NCBI GenBank assembly: GCA_015231955.1
Contig: JADGAN010000006.1
Coordinates: forward strand, 62,001 to 126,000
DNA from: Oligoflexia bacterium
Lineage (GTDB): Bacteria; Bdellovibrionota; Bacteriovoracia; Bacteriovoracales; Bacteriovoracaceae
Reading direction: 5' to 3'
Length of the DNA stretch: 64,000 nt
Numbering within the stretch: position 1 is the stretch's first letter; the number at the start of each line of letters is the position of its first letter. This document shows, in pieces, positions 4,585 through 21,979 of the stretch. The translations under genes were made by a program, and so were the position numbers. Below the pieces are notes generated by a model. That model saw only the letters and a program-made list of their open reading frames with translations, ran no database searches and had not been told where the DNA came from.

Positions 4585-5776
4585 TATTTTAAAGATCTTT
4601 AATTGGTATGGAAAAGGTGTTTTCAAGATGGCCTTGGGGGCGATCTTTAGTTGTGCCTTTTCCATCACCGTCATCCTTGGTACCATCGGGATAATGGATG
4701 GTTTTGAAAAGTCGGTTAAAGGGGCGCTTCGCAAGTGTAGTGGCGATTTGTTGGTTTTTAAAAAGAGTGTTTGGTTCTCTCATGCGGAGGATGACTCTTT
4801 TCTGACTTCCAAGATAAAGAGTGTGTATGCACCGGTACTGCAAAGTGAGGCCTTTCTCATTCATCATGAAAAATCGTCTGCCGTTTTGGTGATGGGAGTG
4901 GATGAGAAGAGTTTTGCAGAGGTTGTTGGGAATAAATTTCAATTTGAAAGAGAGGGAGAGAGTGGGATTGTTGTTGGGAGTGAACTTTTAAAGCAACAAA
5001 AGATTGCCATTGGCGATGAAGTGGTGCTGGCCTTTGCAAATAGTGGAGGAGAGCAAGGGGATGCGCTCTTACCAGTCTTGGAGCGTTTGCGGGTGGTGGG
5101 TGAGATTCATCATGGTATTTATAAAAAGGATTCACGTTTTATTTATATCAAGCGCTCTACACTGCAGGCGGTGACTCGTACCTCGGAGGATGTGTACAAT
5201 TTACTGATGGTGCGTGCAGGATCGAATCATCTTGATAGGAGTGTGGATGTAGATGAACTTCGCGATCAGTTGCAGCTCGATCTTGGCGATGGGTTTTTAG
5301 TGCGAAGTTTTTGGCAAGAGTATGATCTGCTCTTTCAAGCAGTAAAGGTAGAGAAGTTTATTATTGCACTGGTGTTGCAAGTGATTGTGGTGATCTCTAT
5401 CTTTAATATTCTCGCTTTTCTCATCTTCTTTAATGAGCGGCATGCGGCCGAGATTTTTTTACTGGAGACTTTAGGAGTGAGCAAACGGAAGCTGGCACAG
5501 CTGTGGCTAGTGGCGGTGCTTGCACTTTGGGCGATCTCCTCGGCGCTAGCAATCGTGCTGGTAAAGCTTCTCTCTTATGCGCTTTCACACCTATCGTTTC
5601 TGAAACTTCCAGGGGAGGTGTATAACCTCTCTCGTCTTAGCTTAGAGCTGGGCGTAGGAGATTATCTTTTGGTATTTATAATGGTGCTGGCCTGGATTTT
5701 ACTTATCGTGGGGATTGGGGTCTATCGATTAAAGAAGCGCTCTGTTTTGTTGGGACTACGGAAGGAGTTTTTATAG
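4577..5776 (+). CDS. lolC: Lipoprotein-releasing ABC transporter permease LolC/LolE
   Basis: A 399-residue inner-membrane permease with the FtsX/MacB topology: a TM helix near residues 15-37, a large periplasmic domain to about 260, then three TM helices near 262-288, 312-340 and 355-382. With LolD it would extract mature outer-membrane lipoproteins from the inner membrane and hand them to LolA. Only one LolC/E-type gene is present in the locus, so a homodimeric permease, as known in other bacteria with a single LolC/E-type gene, is likely. It overlaps lysS by eight bases and its stop shares one base with the lolD GTG. Confidence 0.88.
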   Translation: MFNILKIFNWYGKGVFKMALGAIFSCAFSITVILGTIGIMDGFEKSVKGALRKCSGDLLVFKKSVWFSHAEDDSFLTSKIKSVYAPVLQSEAFLIHHEKSSAVLVMGVDEKSFAEVVGNKFQFEREGESGIVVGSELLKQQKIAIGDEVVLAFANSGGEQGDALLPVLERLRVVGEIHHGIYKKDSRFIYIKRSTLQAVTRTSEDVYNLLMVRAGSNHLDRSVDVDELRDQLQLDLGDGFLVRSFWQEYDLLFQAVKVEKFIIALVLQVIVVISIFNILAFLIFFNERHAAEIFLLETLGVSKRKLAQLWLVAVLALWAISSALAIVLVKLLSYALSHLSFLKLPGEVYNLSRLSLELGVGDYLLVFIMVLAWILLIVGIGVYRLKKRSVLLGLRKEFL

Positions 5777-6444
5777 TGTTTGCGATTCAGGTAAAAAATT
5801 TGCAAAAGAGTTTTGGACAAACTTCGGTCTTAAAAGGGGTCAACCTCTTTGTGAGCGGTGGAGAGCAGTGTGTGATTCAAGGGGCTTCAGGTTCGGGGAA
5901 GTCAACACTTCTGCATATTATCGCTGGACTAGAGACTGCTAGTAGTGGGCAGGTCAGTGTTGGGAGTGTGCAGGTGAATCAGCTGAGTGATGATGAGCGT
6001 GCGCAGTATCGCAACCTTGTGATTGGGCTTATTTTTCAGTTTCACTACTTGCTTCCTTCGCTTACCTCTATGAATAATATTTTGCTACCGGCAAAGATTG
6101 CATCGTTTAGTCGCGCTGAATTGAATAAACTGCGAGAGCGCGCATGCGAAATTGCGCGTCACTTAGGGGTGGAGCACTGCCTTGAAAAGCACTCGTATGA
6201 GATGTCGGGAGGGGAGCAGCAGCGTGTAAATCTCATTCGCGCGATCTCACTTAGACCCAAAGTATTGTTATGTGACGAACCCACTGGTAATTTAGATTCA
6301 GCAAATTCAGAAAAAGTGACTTCGCTGCTCCTAGACACTGCAAGGGAACAAGCAACGACGCTAGTCGTAGTTACACATAACGAAAAGATGGCGGGCAAAT
6401 TTTCAAGGCAAATTTTAATGGCCGATGGAGTGTTATCGGAGTAA
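5776..6444 (+). CDS. lolD: Lipoprotein-releasing ABC transporter ATPase LolD
   Basis: A 222-residue ABC ATPase. Walker A GASGSGKST is at 36-44, the Q-loop FQF at about 87-89, the signature SGGEQQR at 144-150, Walker B VLLCDEP at 163-169 and the switch His in TTLVVVTHNE near 200. It supplies energy to the LolC permease for lipoprotein release. The start is a GTG at 5776 overlapping the lolC stop by one base, so the pair is translationally coupled. Length and all catalytic motifs are normal for LolD. Confidence 0.92.
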   Translation: MFAIQVKNLQKSFGQTSVLKGVNLFVSGGEQCVIQGASGSGKSTLLHIIAGLETASSGQVSVGSVQVNQLSDDERAQYRNLVIGLIFQFHYLLPSLTSMNNILLPAKIASFSRAELNKLRERACEIARHLGVEHCLEKHSYEMSGGEQQRVNLIRAISLRPKVLLCDEPTGNLDSANSEKVTSLLLDTAREQATTLVVVTHNEKMAGKFSRQILMADGVLSE

Positions 6445-6517
6445 TTTTGAAGGATTATACATAGACAGTGTGGTGGTAAAGAGTATGGAGATAGAGAGTT
6501 CTCGTCAAAGGGTTAGA

Positions 6518-8884
6518 ATGGTAATCCAGTGGTGTAGTCGTGCACTTGTTCTTATTGTCTTATTCTTTGTTTATCTCTTTGAAAGCACCTCACTGGTGCT
6601 CGCGGTAGAGAAGGGAATTGAGAAAGGGACTGCCAAGGAGAGTGAGCAGCTTTTTAAAATCGACGAGGTGGAGATTCGAGGCAATCGCAAGATTGAAAAA
6701 GAGGCCATCTTAGAAAAGATTTTATCAAAGAAGGGGGTAACGCTAGATAAGCGGATGCTCCAAAGCGATATTCAAACCATCTATCGTATGAAGTATTTTG
6801 ATACGGTGGAGGCCCATCAAGAGATTCGTGAAGGAAAAAATTTTTTAGTATGGGTACTGCGAGAGCGGCCGATCATCAAGAGCATTACTTTTAGTGGTAA
6901 CGACGATTTAAGTAAAGACGATTTAACGGAGAAGATTAAGAGTAAGGAGTTTTCCATTCTCGATATTCACACCGTAAAATCGGATATCGGTGAACTTAAA
7001 AAATTGTATGAGGAGAAGGGATTTTATCTGGCCTCCATCGACTATGAGATTAAGCGGATTGATGAGGAGAATGCAGAGCTTATCTTTAAGATTAAAGAGT
7101 ACGATAAAGTACGTGTAAAGAAGATTACGATTTTAGGCAATCGTGCTTTTAGTGATAAAGAGCTAAAAGAGTTTATGCGTACCCGAGAGGAGACGCTGCT
7201 CTCGTTTATGAATGACACGGGAAGTTTTCGCGATTTCGATTTTGAGACCGATATCGAGCGCCTCAAATATTTTTATAAGTCCAAGGGTTACTTGCAGGTT
7301 AATATTGGAAAACCACAAGTGACAGTCTCAGAGGATAAACGCTGGGTCTTTATCTCCTTTAGGATTACGGAGGGGCCCTCCTTTAGTGTAAATAAGATTT
7401 TCTTTGAGGGGGATCTGCTCTTCCCTGAAGAGAAGTTTCGTGAAAAGATTGCACTTAAAGAGGGAGAGACCTACTCCGAAGAGTCACTACGAAAAGATAT
7501 TGTGCTCTTGACAGAGCTTTATCAAGATGAGGGTTACGCTTTTGCCAACGTCATTCGCAATTTGCAAATGGTTCCTGGCGAAAATAAAGTGGATATTCAC
7601 TTTGCCTTTGAGAAAGGAAAGATTGCTTACTTCGGTAAGATTGTCATGAAGGGGAACACACAAACGCGCGATAAGGTCATTCGTCGAGAGCTGTTGGTGC
7701 GTGAAGGGATGAAATACTCGGGGTCGCTACTGCGACAATCAAAGGAGAATGTAAGCCGTTTGGGATTTTTTGAAGCAGAGGCGATTGTTTTCAATACGGT
7801 TACGGTAAAAGATCGTGACGATGTTTTGGACTTAGAGATCTCCATTAAGGAAAAGAATACGGGAGAATTTCGTTTTGGTGCCGGTTATTCGACCGCGACT
7901 GCTGGCTTTATTCAAGCATCGGTGACTAAGCACAATTTCAGAGGCCTAGGACAAGATCTCTCAGCGACCATCAACTGGGCCAAGAGTACGACGGAGTATC
8001 GTTTGGGATTTACTGAGCCCTACCTCTTTGATAGCAAATGGACGGCGGGTGGTGATCTTTACTATCGTAAAGAGGAGCTTCGGGACTATTTTACCAATGA
8101 GAAAGGTGCCGAATCGCGTATTGGTTATCCGATCTTTGATTTTACACGCCTCTACTTACTCTATAACCTTGATTATAAAAAGATTCGCAAGAAATATGTT
8201 AATGGCATTGCGCTAAATCCGATTTTGGATGAGACGCTCGAGAATGGAACGGCCTCGTCATTAAAACTCCTCTTAGAGTATGATAAGCGTAATGATCGCT
8301 GGTCACCAACGGGAGGAATGTTACTTCGTGCCTCTTTCCAATACGTGGGACTTGGTGGTAGTAAGATGTGGTCGCGTTCAGAAGTTGATGGCCGCTACTA
8401 TTACAATATTATAGATGATTTGGTCTTTAGAACTAGGGCCACTGCTGCACAAATTTATCGCCGAAATAATAAGCGTGTACCAAGAGATGATCGCTTATTC
8501 TTAGGAGGTCCACGTGACCTTCGTGGCTTTGACTTTCAGTCGATTGGCCCGATGATAACGACGACGATTAAGAATGAGAAGAATGAGGATGTGGAGTTTA
8601 CCTATAATATGGGCGGATTGTTTACCCTCTACGGTTCGATGGAGTTAGAGTATCCGCTGGTAAAAGAGGCGGGAGTGAAGTGGGCCACCTTTGTGGATGC
8701 TGGTAACATTTTTGAGAAGTATCTTGGAGAAAAGAATAACTATGGACTGCGCTCCGACTGGGGGTTTGGTCTTCGTTGGTTCTCACCCATTGGGCCTTTG
8801 CGCTTTGAGTGGGGTTTTCCACTCGATCGTAAGCCAGGAGAAGAGACACAACAATTTCATTTTGATATCGGACAAGTTTTTTAA
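6518..8884 (+). CDS. bamA: Outer membrane protein assembly factor BamA
   Basis: An Omp85 protein of about 788 residues. After a signal peptide there are repeated POTRA domains over roughly the first 390 residues, then a C-terminal beta barrel. The barrel keeps the loop-6 motif LRGF inside GGPRDLRGFDF, which is diagnostic of the family. It inserts beta-barrel proteins into the outer membrane. I chose the ATG at 6518 because AAAGGG precedes it and a good signal peptide follows. The frame is open back to 6425 inside lolD, with another ATG at 6485, so the start is uncertain. skp follows immediately. Confidence 0.94.
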   Translation: MVIQWCSRALVLIVLFFVYLFESTSLVLAVEKGIEKGTAKESEQLFKIDEVEIRGNRKIEKEAILEKILSKKGVTLDKRMLQSDIQTIYRMKYFDTVEAHQEIREGKNFLVWVLRERPIIKSITFSGNDDLSKDDLTEKIKSKEFSILDIHTVKSDIGELKKLYEEKGFYLASIDYEIKRIDEENAELIFKIKEYDKVRVKKITILGNRAFSDKELKEFMRTREETLLSFMNDTGSFRDFDFETDIERLKYFYKSKGYLQVNIGKPQVTVSEDKRWVFISFRITEGPSFSVNKIFFEGDLLFPEEKFREKIALKEGETYSEESLRKDIVLLTELYQDEGYAFANVIRNLQMVPGENKVDIHFAFEKGKIAYFGKIVMKGNTQTRDKVIRRELLVREGMKYSGSLLRQSKENVSRLGFFEAEAIVFNTVTVKDRDDVLDLEISIKEKNTGEFRFGAGYSTATAGFIQASVTKHNFRGLGQDLSATINWAKSTTEYRLGFTEPYLFDSKWTAGGDLYYRKEELRDYFTNEKGAESRIGYPIFDFTRLYLLYNLDYKKIRKKYVNGIALNPILDETLENGTASSLKLLLEYDKRNDRWSPTGGMLLRASFQYVGLGGSKMWSRSEVDGRYYYNIIDDLVFRTRATAAQIYRRNNKRVPRDDRLFLGGPRDLRGFDFQSIGPMITTTIKNEKNEDVEFTYNMGGLFTLYGSMELEYPLVKEAGVKWATFVDAGNIFEKYLGEKNNYGLRSDWGFGLRWFSPIGPLRFEWGFPLDRKPGEETQQFHFDIGQVF

Positions 8885-8927
8885 GCGTAGTTAATAATAG
8901 AGTTAACCCTATACCTATGGAGCATGT

Positions 8928-9479
8928 ATGATTTTGGGAAAAAAATTAATGGTCAAAGTTTTGATGATGGCACTGTTTGTGGTGTGTGTGAATCTGGGCA
9001 TACGTAGTGCCGATGCAGAGGCAAAGATTGTGGTTGGGCTTGTGGATATGCAAAAAGTGCTTTTAAGCATTGATGAAGGCAAAGGCGTACGCAAGCAACT
9101 TGAAGATGATCTCAAAAAGAAACAAGACTCTTTGAAAAAAGATGAAAATAAGTTTAAAGATCTTCAAGATAAGTTTGAAAAGCAAAGAAGTGTTTTAAAT
9201 GAGAGCAAACGTACAGAGAAGGAGAAGGAGCTGCGTGATCTTTATGTGGAACTTCAAGAAAAAACCATGAAGTTTCAACAAGATTTACAAGATCTTGAGC
9301 GAACCTTAAAGAAGCCTCTGATTGATAAAATAAAGAGTGTGGTAGAGACAGTCTCTAAGACTTCAAGTGTGGATCTGACCTTCGAAGTAGGAACTACTCC
9401 ACTAGTGTATGCTGAAACGAAAAAAGATATCACTGAAGATGTGATTAGTGCTTACAATAAACAATACCCATCGAAGTAG
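8928..9479 (+). CDS. skp: Periplasmic chaperone Skp/OmpH family
   Basis: A 183-residue secreted protein. A signal peptide ends near ADAEA at residues 28-32. A VGLVDMQKVL beta segment follows, then a long Lys/Glu/Gln coiled coil from about 50 to 140 that forms the chaperone tentacles. Skp trimers hold unfolded outer-membrane proteins on the way to BamA. The gene lies between bamA and lpxD, the classical skp position. The ATG at 8928 has GGAG five bases upstream. Confidence 0.9.
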   Translation: MILGKKLMVKVLMMALFVVCVNLGIRSADAEAKIVVGLVDMQKVLLSIDEGKGVRKQLEDDLKKKQDSLKKDENKFKDLQDKFEKQRSVLNESKRTEKEKELRDLYVELQEKTMKFQQDLQDLERTLKKPLIDKIKSVVETVSKTSSVDLTFEVGTTPLVYAETKKDITEDVISAYNKQYPSK

Positions 9480-9501
9480 TTGGACGCATAAGTAATAAAT
9501 T

Positions 9502-10545
9502 ATGGATTTAAGAACACTGATTGCCTATGAACCATCACTGAAACCCTTTGATGATCACTTTGGAAGCGATTTTGATACCTTGACCACCGCAGATGTAGCG
9601 CAAGCGCGAGCGCTCTTTTTTATTAAAGATCAAAAGTACCTTACACGCTGGCAGGCGCAGAGTGATCATGAACATTGGCGCTCTTGTGGCGCCATCCTTT
9701 CGGAATCGCTGGCAACAAAAATTGATTTGCAACTCTTTTCGGGAAAGGTTTTATTGGTGGCAACGGTTTCAAATGTAGACCTTGCCATCTCCAACCTCTC
9801 CTATCCCTTTTATCAAAAAAAGATGCAAGGAGTGAATCTTTTTCGCGATGGCCGTGCCAGCGGAACCGCCGAAGTGGCCGCGAGTGCGATGATTGCTGAT
9901 CGAGTTTTCATTGGAGAACACTCTTTTATTGGAGAGAATGTTGCCATTATGGCGGGTGCGATGATCGGGCCTTATGTGCGAATTGAAGACAACTCTATGA
10001 TTGCTTCGAATGTTTCCATCTATCCATGGGTAAAGATTGCGAAGGGGTGTCGTATTCATTCAGGTACGGTGATTGGTGCCGATGGTTTTGGCTATAACTT
10101 TGATGGTAGAGAACATCGTAAGGTTTGGCACATGGGTGGAGTGGAGATTGCTAGTGGGGTGGAGATTGGTGCTAACTCTGCTGTCGATGCGGGTGCTTTT
10201 GCACCCACCACGATTGGGAGTGGAACCAAGATTGATAATCATGTGCAAATTGGACACAATTGCAAAATTGGCAAAGGTGTGATTATTTGTGGACAAGCAG
10301 GAATTTCTGGAAGTGCGGTGATTGGGGATTATACCGTCTTTGGAGGTCGAGCAGGTTGTGGTCCTAATGTTGTTATAGGATCGCAGTGCCAAGTGGCCGG
10401 TGGGGCGATGATCAATTGCGATTGGCCCGACAAGAGCGTGCTAGGAGGTCACCCTGCAAGACCATTATCAGAGTGGATGAGGGGGCTTGCATTTATTAGA
10501 CGTGAATCGCTTAAAGGAGAAAAGCAGAAAAATGAAGCTTCTTAA
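9502..10545 (+). CDS. lpxD: UDP-3-O-acylglucosamine N-acyltransferase LpxD
   Basis: A 347-residue acyltransferase for the third step of lipid A synthesis. The N-terminal uridine-binding domain covers about 1-105, then left-handed beta-helix hexapeptide repeats run from about 115 to 320. The IGADGFGY motif is at 191-198 and the catalytic His is His252 in the QIGHNCKIG segment. It adds the 2-N-linked hydroxyacyl chain from acyl-ACP. The C-terminus overlaps upstream sequence of fabZ by about 14 bases. If the sugar is GlcN3N rather than GlcN, the natural substrate would carry a 3-amide. Confidence 0.95.
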   Translation: MDLRTLIAYEPSLKPFDDHFGSDFDTLTTADVAQARALFFIKDQKYLTRWQAQSDHEHWRSCGAILSESLATKIDLQLFSGKVLLVATVSNVDLAISNLSYPFYQKKMQGVNLFRDGRASGTAEVAASAMIADRVFIGEHSFIGENVAIMAGAMIGPYVRIEDNSMIASNVSIYPWVKIAKGCRIHSGTVIGADGFGYNFDGREHRKVWHMGGVEIASGVEIGANSAVDAGAFAPTTIGSGTKIDNHVQIGHNCKIGKGVIICGQAGISGSAVIGDYTVFGGRAGCGPNVVIGSQCQVAGGAMINCDWPDKSVLGGHPARPLSEWMRGLAFIRRESLKGEKQKNEAS

Positions 10546-16592: not shown

Positions 16593-19500
16593 CTAGCGAG
16601 AAAAAAATGATTTGGCCCGCTCAAGATAAATCACGAGAGGAGGAATCATGATAAAAGTAAAAAAAGTGGAGGCCATCATCCCTCCAATCATCACTGAGGC
16701 CATCGATGCTTTAACCGTATGAAGAGTGAATAGTTGTGGAAGAGTTCCTGCAATAATTGCAATAGTTGTCATCAGAATGGGACGAAGTCGCTCACGGCCT
16801 GCAAACAACAAAGCATCGATTGGAAGAAGTCCCTCATTCAGTTTAGTCAATGTGAGGTCTAATAGTAAAATCGCATTATTCACCACTAGCCCAACTAACA
16901 TCACAATTGCCAACATGCTTCCAATATTAATGGAGTGTCCGACAAAGAAGAGGAAGAGAAAAACGCCGGTCATGCCAGTCACAATAGTCGATGCAATCAC
17001 AAAAGGATAGGCCAGGGAGTTCATAAGAGCAGCTAAAACCATGTACGTCAGGATCGTTGCAAGAATAAAAGCTTTACCAATTTCACGAGAAGACTCTTCT
17101 TGCATTTCTGCATTTCCGGAAAAATGGTATCCATGTCCAGGTGAGAAGGGAAGAGTATTAAACTCTTTTTTGAGTAAATTTTGCACCTCCCCTGCGGTTG
17201 ATTTAGAGAGAAAACTTTCAATCTTGATAATTCGAGTGCGATCACGCCTTTGCAGAGGAGGAATAGACTCTGCAAAAAAGTTTTTACCCAGTTTTAATAG
17301 AGGCACTAACCCTTTTGTACCAAGGATGCTAATGTTCTTAACATCACTAGGGCGGTTCCTATAGTTTTTGTCTAGCTCCACGTTGATCTTGTATTCCTCA
17401 CCATCTTCCCGAAAAATATTGGAATCATCTCCATAAACAGAGGCGCGTAAAGTTTGCGCCACTTGCACATTGGTGACTCCATAGGAGAGCATCGCCTTTT
17501 CATCAGGAAGAAAACGAATTTCTGTTTTGGGCATTTTATGAGAAAGAGAGAGAGATCTAAAAAAACCACTTTTAATCATAATCTCTGATATTTTCTCTGC
17601 ACTGGCCACCATTTCATCATAGTTACTACCATAGACATCGATCGAAAAATCACTTGCGGCCCCTGCTTTGCCCTCTCCTCTGGACATGGAAATTTCAGCA
17701 TCGGGAATCGTTGCTAGCAGAGGAATAAGTTCGTTAATAATTTCTAAATCACTTCTTCTGCTTTTGGCCGGTGTAAGATCCACGGTGATCGAGGTATTTT
17801 CAAGGCCGTTGTGACCAATGGTTGTAAGCACATGAGTCACTTCGGGAATTTTCTTCAAAAGTTCCTCAATCTTTTTGGCGCTATTAGAACTTCTTTCTAG
17901 GGTCGAATCCTTTGGCATAGTCAGTGAAACATTAATTTTTTCTTGATCAAATTGTGCAAAAAACTCATTACCTATATAGGGAACAATGGCCTTAACCGCA
18001 TAGAGCGATATGATGCAAAGTAGGAGAGTACTTTTTTTATATTTTAAAATAATTTTTAACACCGTTGAGTATTCGCTCACTATAAAATCACAAAGGTAAT
18101 CCATCCAACGAGTGACAATAAATTTCTTTTCCTCTGGACGATGTTTGAGGAAAAGTCCACAAAGCATTGGTGTAAAGGTAAAAGTGGTGAGCAGAGAAAA
18201 AAGCGTTGTATAGACCACTGTTAGACCAAACTGTTTCATAAATTGGCCAACAATTCCACCCATAAATCCAATCGGAGTAAACACCACTACATTGGTCATC
18301 GTTGAAGCGAACACGGCAACCGCCACTACTTTAGTACCTGCAATAGCGGCCTCTTGAGGTGGAAGACCCTCCTTTAACTTCACAATGATACTTTCAATAA
18401 TAACAATAGCATTTGCAATCAATGTTCCAAGCGCTGTCCCTACGGCCATCAAGGTCATCATATTAACACTAAAATTGGAGGCATCTACCAATAAGAAAGT
18501 TGCAATAAGCGATGTGGGAATAACCAGCACCGCGATCATCGTCACTTTTAAATCCCCTGTGAAAAGATAGAGGATGATGATAGTCAGCAAAATCCCAAAG
18601 AGAATGTTCACCATCGCCTCTTTGGTGTCATCAACAATCTTTTTAGAGCCGTCAGCGGCCACTGCTAGTGATAACCCTTTGGGAAGGTTTTCAGAGAGTT
18701 TCGGCATCGCTTTTTTTAGAGCATTTACCACAGAGACAGCATTCCCATCAGAAGCTTTTTTAAGTGCTAAGGTCACCACGCTCTTGCCATCATAGCGAGC
18801 AATGGTCTCTGCATCCCTTGAGCCATCAACAACCTGAGCTACTTCCCCTAAGCGAAAAGAGGTTCCTTCTCGCGAGGCCACTTGGGTATCCTCAATTTTT
18901 TTTATATTTTCAAATTCACCCACAAAGCGTACCGAGATATTTTTTTCACTTTTCTCGATAGACCCTCCTGGAATATTAAGATTTTTATAGGAGAGCGCTT
19001 GAATAATATCGGTAATACTTGCATAATGATTGGCCAACTTTTTAGCATCTACCTCAACATTAATTTGGCGTTTTTTTCCACCACTAAGTTCAATGGTGGC
19101 CACCCCTTTAATGGAAGCAAGTTTTGTGCGTAATTTTTTATCGGCGTATTCATACAGTTCACTCTCACTATACTGTCCATCGGAAAGTAACACGAGTTGC
19201 GCAACCGGTTTTACTAAAGGATCAAATTTTTCAATAATCGGTTTTTCCGCTTTTTCTGGCAGATCTTTGATGATCGCCTCTACCTTATCTTTGACTTCAA
19301 TCGATTTAATGTTTGCCATAACACCAAGATTAAACTCCACAGAGATCATGGCAAAATTTTCATAGGCAAAGGAGTGAAGTTTTTTAATCTCTGAGATTTC
19401 ACTAATGGCATCTTCAATCTTTTTGATAACTTGTTGTTCAATTTCAAGGGGAGAAGCACCAGGGTAAACAACCTTGATATTAACAATAGGGAAATCCACT

Positions 19501-19610
19501 TTAGGAGTATCTTCAATATTTAAATTAAAGAAAGAGACAAAACCTAATATAACAAAAACTAAAGTAAGCATAAGTGTCGCAACTGGATTTTGTACAAAAT
19601 ATCGAATCAT
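16593..19610 (-). CDS. RND superfamily (AcrB-like) inner-membrane pump lacking the proton-relay aspartates
   Basis: A 1005-residue RND protein with the standard two-fold plan: TM1 at 10-30, a large periplasmic porter/docking loop, TM2-6, a second loop from about 545, and TM8-12 at the end. The family GALGTLIANAIV region of TM4 is at 391-402. AcrB has Asp407-Asp408 there (LLVDDAIV); this protein has Ala399-Asn400. The TM10 Lys940 position is Asn911 in GLVVNNAIL, a substitution seen in many relatives. With no TM4 acid visible, ordinary proton antiport should not work. The gene follows a tiny adaptor and a TolC-like gene and is probably under the TetR gene upstream. Substrate unknown. Confidence 0.9.
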   Translation of the reverse strand: MIRYFVQNPVATLMLTLVFVILGFVSFFNLNIEDTPKVDFPIVNIKVVYPGASPLEIEQQVIKKIEDAISEISEIKKLHSFAYENFAMISVEFNLGVMANIKSIEVKDKVEAIIKDLPEKAEKPIIEKFDPLVKPVAQLVLLSDGQYSESELYEYADKKLRTKLASIKGVATIELSGGKKRQINVEVDAKKLANHYASITDIIQALSYKNLNIPGGSIEKSEKNISVRFVGEFENIKKIEDTQVASREGTSFRLGEVAQVVDGSRDAETIARYDGKSVVTLALKKASDGNAVSVVNALKKAMPKLSENLPKGLSLAVAADGSKKIVDDTKEAMVNILFGILLTIIILYLFTGDLKVTMIAVLVIPTSLIATFLLVDASNFSVNMMTLMAVGTALGTLIANAIVIIESIIVKLKEGLPPQEAAIAGTKVVAVAVFASTMTNVVVFTPIGFMGGIVGQFMKQFGLTVVYTTLFSLLTTFTFTPMLCGLFLKHRPEEKKFIVTRWMDYLCDFIVSEYSTVLKIILKYKKSTLLLCIISLYAVKAIVPYIGNEFFAQFDQEKINVSLTMPKDSTLERSSNSAKKIEELLKKIPEVTHVLTTIGHNGLENTSITVDLTPAKSRRSDLEIINELIPLLATIPDAEISMSRGEGKAGAASDFSIDVYGSNYDEMVASAEKISEIMIKSGFFRSLSLSHKMPKTEIRFLPDEKAMLSYGVTNVQVAQTLRASVYGDDSNIFREDGEEYKINVELDKNYRNRPSDVKNISILGTKGLVPLLKLGKNFFAESIPPLQRRDRTRIIKIESFLSKSTAGEVQNLLKKEFNTLPFSPGHGYHFSGNAEMQEESSREIGKAFILATILTYMVLAALMNSLAYPFVIASTIVTGMTGVFLFLFFVGHSINIGSMLAIVMLVGLVVNNAILLLDLTLTKLNEGLLPIDALLFAGRERLRPILMTTIAIIAGTLPQLFTLHTVKASMASVMIGGMMASTFFTFIMIPPLVIYLERAKSFFSR

Positions 19611-20033
19611 TTATTTTCCACCAAGCAGATTTAAGTTTGTATTTGCATTTGAAATTGAATTGACCTTGTCTCCATCTTTTAAAATAGAGCTTCCTTCTGC
19701 AACATAATCAGTGGCATCACTGACAGAAGCAACAGAGGTAATAAAGAAGAAATCACCTTTCTCTCGAATTACTGTTATAGGAACTAATTTTGCAGTACCT
19801 TCCTTTACTATAAAGATAAAAGGATGGTTCTCCTTGTAAATAATGGAGTTGCTGGCAATGCCTTCGCTTATTTTACCAGTGATAACAGGTTTCCCCTTTG
19901 ATTCATAAATAGAGAGAGTACTGGGGATCACTTTTTCCCGCTGACGAATTATTTCGTTTTTTCTCACTATTATTTTTCCCATCAAAAGAAGTAGGAGGGT
20001 CACATAAAAAGACCCGCGTATGAAATTCTTCAT
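19611..20033 (-). CDS. Truncated RND periplasmic adaptor-like protein
   Basis: A 140-residue protein with an N-terminal hydrophobic helix (about 10-21) and a beta-rich domain. Residues 55-128 read like the membrane-proximal end of RND adaptors: SNSIIYKENHPFIFIVKEG, then KLVPITVIREKGDFFFITS, then a final EGSSILKDGDKV. The lipoyl domain and alpha-hairpin that normally reach TolC are not encoded. The start overlaps the TolC-like stop as ATGA and its stop abuts the RND start, so no missing part lies next to it. It could be a decayed adaptor or a deliberately short one. An ordinary adaptor has about 350-400 residues. Confidence 0.65.
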   Translation of the reverse strand: MKNFIRGSFYVTLLLLLMGKIIVRKNEIIRQREKVIPSTLSIYESKGKPVITGKISEGIASNSIIYKENHPFIFIVKEGTAKLVPITVIREKGDFFFITSVASVSDATDYVAEGSSILKDGDKVNSISNANTNLNLLGGK

Positions 20034-21364
20034 TGCATACCATCCTCTACGCTAACTCTTTCTATAAGGGCCTGCGCTTGTAATAATGAAAATTTTGATT
20101 TTGCAAGTGCTACTCGCTGTCCTGTTAATGCTAACTCTAAATCATTAACTTCACTGAGCGCAACATTTGCAGCAGCATAACGTTTACGAGCAAAGAGATA
20201 ATTTTTTTCTGCCAACAAAACTGCCTCTAACCCTGCATGAAGGGTTCTCTGTGCTGTTTCATAATCGGTGATTGCATTCTTAAGTTGCACTTCAAGATCC
20301 TTCTTTACTTTTTCTTTTTCAAGAACTGCACTTCTCTTCTCGATAACAGCACTTCGATAAACGGCTTCCGTTGACCCTCCATGAAAGATAGGTATCGTGA
20401 GCTTAATCCCAATAGCGGCCATACTTTTCATATTATCACTCCCTATGGTAGCTTCATAAGAATCCCCGAAATAGTTGAAACTTGCAAATCCTGCCAAGAG
20501 AGGAAAGTGAGCGGCCCGGTTAATCTTGATCATATCATCGCTCATCTCAATTTTTTTATCCAAAGCGAGCAGACGAGGGTCAACCAAAGATAAATGTCGT
20601 TTGCTCGGAGTATTTGGAATATGATGACGAACTTCACTGCTCATTTCTTCGATCGAAGGGGCCACTAGCAAAATGGCCTCATCTGCTGTTAGTGCCGTTA
20701 AACGTTTTATAAAATGCAGACTTTTCTGATGCCCCCCTAAAGCTTCTTCTTTACTGGCCACTCGTCCAGCAACATCGGCCTCAATTTTAATCGCTTGTCC
20801 TTGGGGAATTTTTCCCAGTGCATATCGCTGTTTGGTAATATCTCGATTGATGAGGGCATTCTTATAAGAGCTTTCTGTAATATCCAAAACCTCTTTTGCA
20901 AAAAGCGCTGTGTAATATGCCAATTTTGTTTGATAGATGATCTCCTGATTTGCAATTGCTTTACCAATTACAGAGGCCTCTTTGGCCTTTTTTGCTAATT
21001 CAATCGCCGTCGAAACTTTACCAAAGGCCCAAAGAACTTGAGTTACTGTGGTGTTAATCGATGCTTCATAATCTTTTTTTAGGGGGATTTTTACTTTAGG
21101 CATCGGAGCTGGAAGATTCATCTCATTGTTAGGGATAATAGGATAGTGGGTATAGCTAATGGTTGTATCGATTTGAGGCAAGACTCCACCATAAATCTCT
21201 TGATATTTTTCCTCTATTAGCTGCTGCTGCTGATCCGCAAGCGCCACCGCTTCACTGGCCTTGAGTGCAAGCGTCGTGGCCTCTTGAAGGGTTAATACAC
21301 GTGCCTCTACCCTCCCACCACTAGCGATGAAACAATACAATATTAAGATAAATATCGTTTTCAA
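20030..21364 (-). CDS. TolC-family outer membrane efflux protein
   Basis: A 444-residue outer-membrane channel subunit. A signal peptide ends around residue 20 (GGRVEA). Two OEP repeats follow; the first starts with LTLQEATTLALKAS near 24-37, and the second runs over roughly 245-440 with long heptad-rich helices such as EKEKVKKDLEVQLKNAITDYE. Such proteins trimerise into a tunnel across the outer membrane. The start lies 12 bases after the tetR stop, and the gene overlaps the adaptor by four bases, giving a tetR-tolC-adaptor-RND operon. Confidence 0.85.
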   Translation of the reverse strand: MKTIFILILYCFIASGGRVEARVLTLQEATTLALKASEAVALADQQQQLIEEKYQEIYGGVLPQIDTTISYTHYPIIPNNEMNLPAPMPKVKIPLKKDYEASINTTVTQVLWAFGKVSTAIELAKKAKEASVIGKAIANQEIIYQTKLAYYTALFAKEVLDITESSYKNALINRDITKQRYALGKIPQGQAIKIEADVAGRVASKEEALGGHQKSLHFIKRLTALTADEAILLVAPSIEEMSSEVRHHIPNTPSKRHLSLVDPRLLALDKKIEMSDDMIKINRAAHFPLLAGFASFNYFGDSYEATIGSDNMKSMAAIGIKLTIPIFHGGSTEAVYRSAVIEKRSAVLEKEKVKKDLEVQLKNAITDYETAQRTLHAGLEAVLLAEKNYLFARKRYAAANVALSEVNDLELALTGQRVALAKSKFSLLQAQALIERVSVEDGMQ

Positions 21365-21376
21365 CTTTTCTCCTTT

Positions 21377-21979
21377 TTATTTACTCAGATGTTCTAAAAT
21401 GGAATCTGCAACTGCTACCATGACCTCTTCTGCAAAATTTTTTCCAAAGAGATTGCCAATAATAGGTCCCTCTGCATGCCCACTTTCAATCATGAGAATG
21501 AGATGTAAAATTTGAACATTCACTACATGAACCGCCCAAAAAATATCTTTCTCTTTTATGTCATGGCCAATTTCTCGTTTTAACACCTCTTGAAAGTGGA
21601 TAATACCAAAAGGAAAATGAGGTCGATTTTTTTTCCAAAAATCTTTCAAATCAAGTCTCTCATGAAGAAGGACTAGACGAAAAATAGGAATGATAAGATC
21701 TTTTTTAGCAAGGAAGAGATGCAATAACTCAATGCTTAATTGTCTAAAGGTGATCGTCTTATTGCTCACCACAATCTTAGAAAACTCATCACTCATCTGT
21801 TGATGGCCAGTCTCCATCACAGTCAAAAGCAGATTTTCTTTACTGCCAAAGTGGTAGTTAATAGAAGCAACATTGACTCCCGCTTTTTTTGCAATCTCTC
21901 GTATAGAAGCAGAGTGATATCCTTTGCAAGAAAAGAGTTCTCTAGCTTTTTGAAGGATTTTATTTTCAGTTTTGGCCAT
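21377..21979 (-). CDS. TetR/AcrR family transcriptional regulator
   Basis: A 200-residue regulator. The N-terminal HTH is standard: ILQKARELFSCKGYHSASIR at 8-27 leading to the recognition helix in AGVNVASINYHFGSKENLL at 33-51. The C-terminal ligand domain is variable and helical. It is the first gene of the efflux-like operon and probably represses it and itself. A perfect 8-bp-arm palindrome lies 32-49 bases upstream of its ATG. Inducer unknown. Confidence 0.9.
   Translation of the reverse strand: MAKTENKILQKARELFSCKGYHSASIREIAKKAGVNVASINYHFGSKENLLLTVMETGHQQMSDEFSKIVVSNKTITFRQLSIELLHLFLAKKDLIIPIFRLVLLHERLDLKDFWKKNRPHFPFGIIHFQEVLKREIGHDIKEKDIFWAVHVVNVQILHLILMIESGHAEGPIIGNLFGKNFAEEVMVAVADSILEHLSK

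Follow-up and report, generated by a model that had tools for sequence, protein, structure and literature searches.

A conserved clade of AcrB-fold RND proteins without the TM4 and TM10 proton-relay residues, encoded beside a stub periplasmic adaptor

The DNA analysed here, referred to as the window, is a 64,000-nucleotide stretch of contig JADGAN010000006.1 from an Oligoflexia bacterium. Its minus strand carries an operon in which a regulator, a TolC-type outer-membrane factor (OMF) and a small protein precede a gene for an RND inner-membrane protein. The genes, together with the codons of the RND gene that are relevant to the argument, are listed below.

21377..21979, minus strand: TetR-family regulator, heading the operon (PF00440, 65 bits)
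20030..21364, minus strand: TolC-type OMF, 444 aa, with a TTG start (PF02321, 138 bits, two repeats)
19611..20033, minus strand: stub periplasmic adaptor, 140 aa, from family profile and fold model
16593..19610, minus strand: AcrB-type RND inner-membrane protein, 1005 aa, from PF00873 and fold model
18423..18425, minus strand: TM4 codon T396 (AcrB L404), Thr in 16 of 16 clade members and hydrophobic in canonical RNDs
18411..18416, minus strand: TM4 codons A399 and N400 (AcrB D407/D408), from alignment, uncharged in every clade member read
18291..18293, minus strand: TM5 codon N440 (AcrB L449), Asn in 34 of 34 clade members and I/V/L/T in canonical RNDs
18204..18206, minus strand: TM6 codon T469 (AcrB M478), Thr in 34 of 34 clade members and M/V/I/L in canonical RNDs
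16878..16880, minus strand: TM10 codon N911 (AcrB K940), from alignment

The RND open reading frame begins with ATG and runs for 1005 codons (16593..19610, minus strand) with no internal stop, as had been described originally. It matches Pfam ACR_tran (PF00873) across residues 1-994 with 697 bits, the cut-off being 28. The same frame falls below the cut-off of every NCBIfam RND model compared (RND_permease_1/2, TIGR00915 and the MdtB/MdtC equivalogs), the best score being 640 bits where 1250 are required. A single AlphaFold2 model, built from 17 sequences, has a pLDDT of 80 and fits AcrB, AcrD and MdtF over their full length with a TM-score of about 0.90 (Foldseek), and the VIA fold match covers 986 residues with a Z of 52. 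By homology and fold, the protein is a full-length member of the RND superfamily (ACR_tran). It shares with the AcrB/MdtB-type permeases (HAE-1, PF00873) the complete fold, two porter loops, 12 TM helices, an OMF in the operon, and the residues equivalent to R/K971 and T978. It differs from them in its sub-cut-off NCBIfam scores, in an identity of just 30-32% to the nearest canonical RNDs of relatives, and, along with the rest of its clade, in the absence of D407, D408 and K940.

In an alignment with E. coli AcrB, MdtB, MdtC and CusA and with the RNDs of the window's own genome, these three AcrB residues correspond to A399, N400 and N911, exactly as the original prediction had them. AcrB E414, R971 and T978 correspond to E406, R941 and T948; the position of R971 is Lys in most clade members. 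AcrB E346 and D924 are also missing, and both vary in canonical RNDs. The relay positions were then read in about 68 orthologues from at least three phyla, and none of them has an acid there. The TM4 acid at AcrB 407/408 that characterises HAE-1 proteins is thus absent from the window's RND and from all orthologues read, and the TM10 Lys at AcrB 940 is Asn or Thr across the clade. Written in the order 407-408/940, the pattern reads A-N/N for the window's phylum, for Elusimicrobia and for a MAG labelled Clostridia, and S-N/N for an alphaproteobacterial order. T-S/T occurs in three members from the search of the Elusimicrobia phylum, and I-N/N in one member. The sub-branches with T-S/T or I-N/N (loci L124-L126 and L173) are still uncharged.

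The two helices do not carry equal weight. Asn in place of the TM10 Lys is also found in RNDs that keep their acids, two with TM4 DD (L104, L106) and one with TM4 DN (L089), so that only the TM4 loss is exceptional. It is the absent first TM4 Asp that is special; the absent TM10 Lys is not so on its own. Another RND of the window's genome (L007, G000:C37) has TM4 DD with the TM10 Lys replaced by Arg.

Orthologues at 40-50% identity are found in the window's own phylum (27 of 369 genomes), in the phylum of the Endomicrobiales/Elusimicrobia MAGs (9 of 295 genomes), in one Clostridia-labelled MAG, and in one alphaproteobacterial order, where 172 of 201 species have them. In a tree of 68 RND proteins from which the three relay columns had been removed, the 32 relay-less proteins occupy one side of a single branch (SH-aLRT 100, length 0.75), and relay loss maps to one change with no reversal. 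All 36 other proteins in this tree, including HME and other deep lineages, retain D407, which rules out chance as an explanation. The dN/dS ratio is 0.03-0.15 in close clade pairs with estimable dS. Conservation of the TM4/TM10 core is 0.71/0.70 in the clade versus 0.73/0.64 in canonical RNDs, and the porter domains are conserved at least as well as those of canonical pumps. The relay-less RNDs are an old, conserved clade of single origin that is under purifying selection.

No acid has taken the place of the Asp pair in the TM core of the clade alignment. The TM acids common to most of the clade (E406 and D/E918) are common to all RNDs, and the sole clade-specific acid, E843, is placed at the end of TM8 that faces the periplasm; a replacement acid was therefore rejected. 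The original prediction had named two observations that would count against it, orthologues keeping the Asp pair and another conserved TM acid in register with the relay. Neither was encountered, the first among the about 68 orthologues read and the second in the clade TM core, and its claim that the standard relay is unusable stands. What the clade has gained is polar and neutral. T396, invariant and clade-specific, lies one turn from N400, and T469 lies one turn from a conserved Ser whose counterpart, AcrB S481, touches D408 (PMC4359379). S472, N912 and T948 (AcrB S481, N941 and T978) are retained, and only Asn, Ser or Thr occurs at the positions of AcrB 408 and 940. Instead of allowing downhill transport, this rebuilt and strictly conserved polar core could equally well serve another ion or hold a locked state. 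A shortened switch loop was dropped as a special trait; MdtC and others have one equally short.

The gene directly upstream of the RND encodes a stub of a periplasmic adaptor. In TriA/TriB, MexJ, MacA, BesA and AcrA, the match to the family profile is confined to the C-terminal barrel and membrane-proximal part, and TIGR01730 matches the small protein only from position 172, or from about position 250, to position 321 of 322. Because only this C-terminal part is matched, the small protein is a periplasmic adaptor without the lipoyl domain and the hairpin. It is 188-240 aa long in 80 of 80 complete clade loci, some of which are repeat fetches of one gene. The upstream gene beside canonical RNDs is mostly at least 362 aa, and the few short ones adjoin divergent RNDs such as those of L088, L096 and L113. 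At 140 aa, the window's adaptor is shorter than that of any relative and comprises an N-terminal TM helix and the membrane-proximal domain only, with no beta-barrel, lipoyl domain or hairpin. Its fold model (pLDDT 86.5), one N-terminal helix and a small beta domain, matches BesA and AcrA/MexA over 70-85 columns, BesA being the best, and by this model the window's copy has lost the barrel as well. Neither in the window nor in its relatives is this upstream gene a full adaptor of the tripartite RND efflux kind, with membrane-proximal, barrel, lipoyl and hairpin parts. Since all clade adaptors are stubs, relay loss and adaptor truncation coincide across the clade. The span originally described holds the RND features as claimed, but the truncated adaptor at 19611-20033 lies outside it.

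A hairpin-less adaptor in an OMF-adaptor-RND operon is also seen in the BesABC system of Borrelia. However, BesA, which has no hairpin, retains its lipoyl and beta-barrel domains (PMC3807786), whereas the clade members aligned lack the lipoyl region and the window's copy lacks the barrel too. It was also considered that a full adaptor might be supplied from elsewhere in the cell. Full-length adaptors do occur in the alphaproteobacterial genomes opened, but they adjoin OMF genes of their own, mostly with MacB-type ABC genes; this source was rejected, with sharing still conceivable. A different arrangement is found at another locus of the window's genome (L006, G000:C85, about 5460-9850), where a 1486-aa ORF joins an RND permease to a C-terminal OEP/TolC-type domain. 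It has TM4 D-A and TM10 G, and a 322-aa adaptor frame lies upstream. ORFs of similar length occur in L109 and L113. The RND-OEP fusion is presumably a known fused arrangement.

The TolC-type OMF expected of a tripartite RND efflux system is present (PF02321) and occupies the same place in relatives' loci. The order OMF, small protein, RND is conserved in the relatives opened, and a TetR or MarR gene heads the locus in most of them. TetR is the regulator at many loci within the window's phylum and at those from Elusimicrobia and the Clostridia MAG; MarR is found in the alphaproteobacterial order and in some loci of the window's phylum. In the alphaproteobacterial loci L157-L174, where MarR replaces TetR, the operon is usually located upstream of a housekeeping block comprising HAD phosphatase, rmuC, def, fmt, truA and comEC genes.

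In AcrB, any one of the substitutions D407N, D408N and K940A is enough to abolish both proton translocation and efflux (PMC4359379). It follows from that work that the D407/D408/K940 proton antiport cycle is impossible for the clade protein. The same positions are neutralised in both cases, but the AcrB variants are laboratory point mutants in which a coupled pump no longer works, whereas the clade is a natural lineage with all three changes and additional polar residues in the core. Because the charged relay residues are lost, the clade pumps must work by another route.

The best explanation of the whole is a relay-less, conserved clade whose regulated operon encodes an envelope-spanning exporter of small molecules with an uncoupled porter cycle, a reading that is about evenly balanced between right and wrong. 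Its component claims differ in strength. That this is a relay-free and self-sufficient transport system is quite probable; that transport is specifically downhill or uncoupled is a tentative proposal, somewhat short of an even chance. On this proposal, a TetR or MarR regulator would induce the operon for small-molecule export, and the RND and OMF would dock tip to tip, an arrangement already proposed for BesABC of Borrelia. The neutral Asn/Thr/Ser core would let the two TM repeats shift without protonation, so that the porter domain could cycle without proton coupling while the substrate moves downhill from the periplasm or the inner-membrane leaflet to the outside. The one precedent for a sealed conduit whose adaptor has no hairpin is BesABC, and that system still has the lipoyl domain. 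In a broader form, an AcrB-fold lineage without a titratable TM4/TM10 residue would be driven either by another ion, via neutral Asn/Thr/Ser, or by a substrate gradient, with handover to a TolC-type partner that dispenses with the adaptor lipoyl domain and hairpins; this falls only slightly below even likelihood.

Coupling to another ion, within that best reading, is unlikely for the clade. It may also be taken as an explanation in its own right and is then the chief rival, namely an active transporter in which an ion such as Na+ is bound by neutral Asn/Thr/Ser oxygens that replace the carboxylates, and here too the chance is perhaps one in a few. The residues are in keeping with it, with Asn, Ser or Thr always at 408 and 940, with T396, N440 and T469 new and invariant, and with S472, N912 and T948 kept. 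LeuT-type transporters have neutral-ligand Na+ sites of this sort. One RND run by sodium-motive force has been mentioned, but the known ion-coupled RNDs retain an acid (PMC8277102).

It may instead be that the protein does not transport at all and acts as a ligand sensor, a scaffold or a structural component of an OMF complex that stays in an O-like state for good, which is improbable. Such a role would fit the loss of the residues for coupling and of those parts of the adaptor which recruit and open the OMF, and SCAP, a transport-dead protein of the RND fold, provides a comparison. The fold model is in keeping with this role and also with the exporter reading. Foldseek ranks O-state protomers highest (9fdp; the C chains of asymmetric AcrB trimers), with a TM-score of about 0.90 to AcrB chain C versus 0.83-0.86 to other chains, and AdeB OOO is among its VIA matches. 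The O state of AcrB is the one in which D407/D408 are neutral (PMC4359379); an O-like model is suggestive, and would be compatible with a core fixed in the neutral form. However, the porter domains are no less conserved than those of canonical pumps, an OMF gene is present in the loci opened, and no signalling domain or linked partner gene is found at relatives' loci.

The original prediction had also offered a passive partner. A subunit of this kind would join a canonical proton-driven RND in mixed trimers, in the manner of MdtB/MdtC. Such trimers exist (PMC8277102), and besides this protein the window's genome does encode six of the ACR_tran family, of which three have the standard DD/K. RND subunits of unequal role would be common to both systems, but MdtB and MdtC both keep DD and K, and the clade operon has no partner RND gene. 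All operons opened have a single RND gene, with no second one adjacent as in MdtBC. In the alphaproteobacterial order, whose genomes are 0.6-1.1 Mb, 186 of 191 genomes have an ACR_tran match and about 127 of 191 have exactly one PF00873 match, which is the relay-less protein wherever coordinates were compared. High-scoring canonical RNDs occur in only six genomes of the order among the matches listed. Absence counts and the description as the only RND are approximate because the genome sets are largely metagenome bins. Since the protein is mostly the sole RND in this order, and no other was found in most of its genomes, the passive role is rejected as a general function and is very unlikely overall.

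A decaying pseudogene or a sequencing or assembly error is scarcely credible: the window's adaptor is indeed short (140 aa against 188-240 aa in relatives), but intact frames, identical residues in dozens of species and strong purifying selection refute decay for the clade.

The relay-free exporter reading concerns a protein that is an RND by fold and homology and lacks the functional residues that define proton antiporters. A broad review has it that all RNDs appear to retain at least one central acid (PMC8277102), and no published description of a relay-less RND clade was found in the open-access literature searched. A natural clade present in at least three phyla, and serving as the main or only RND where genomes are very small, dissociates the AcrB fold from proton coupling. 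It offers a natural test of the purpose of the porter cycle and of the adaptor hairpin, and a caution against labelling genes of this sort proton-driven multidrug pumps.
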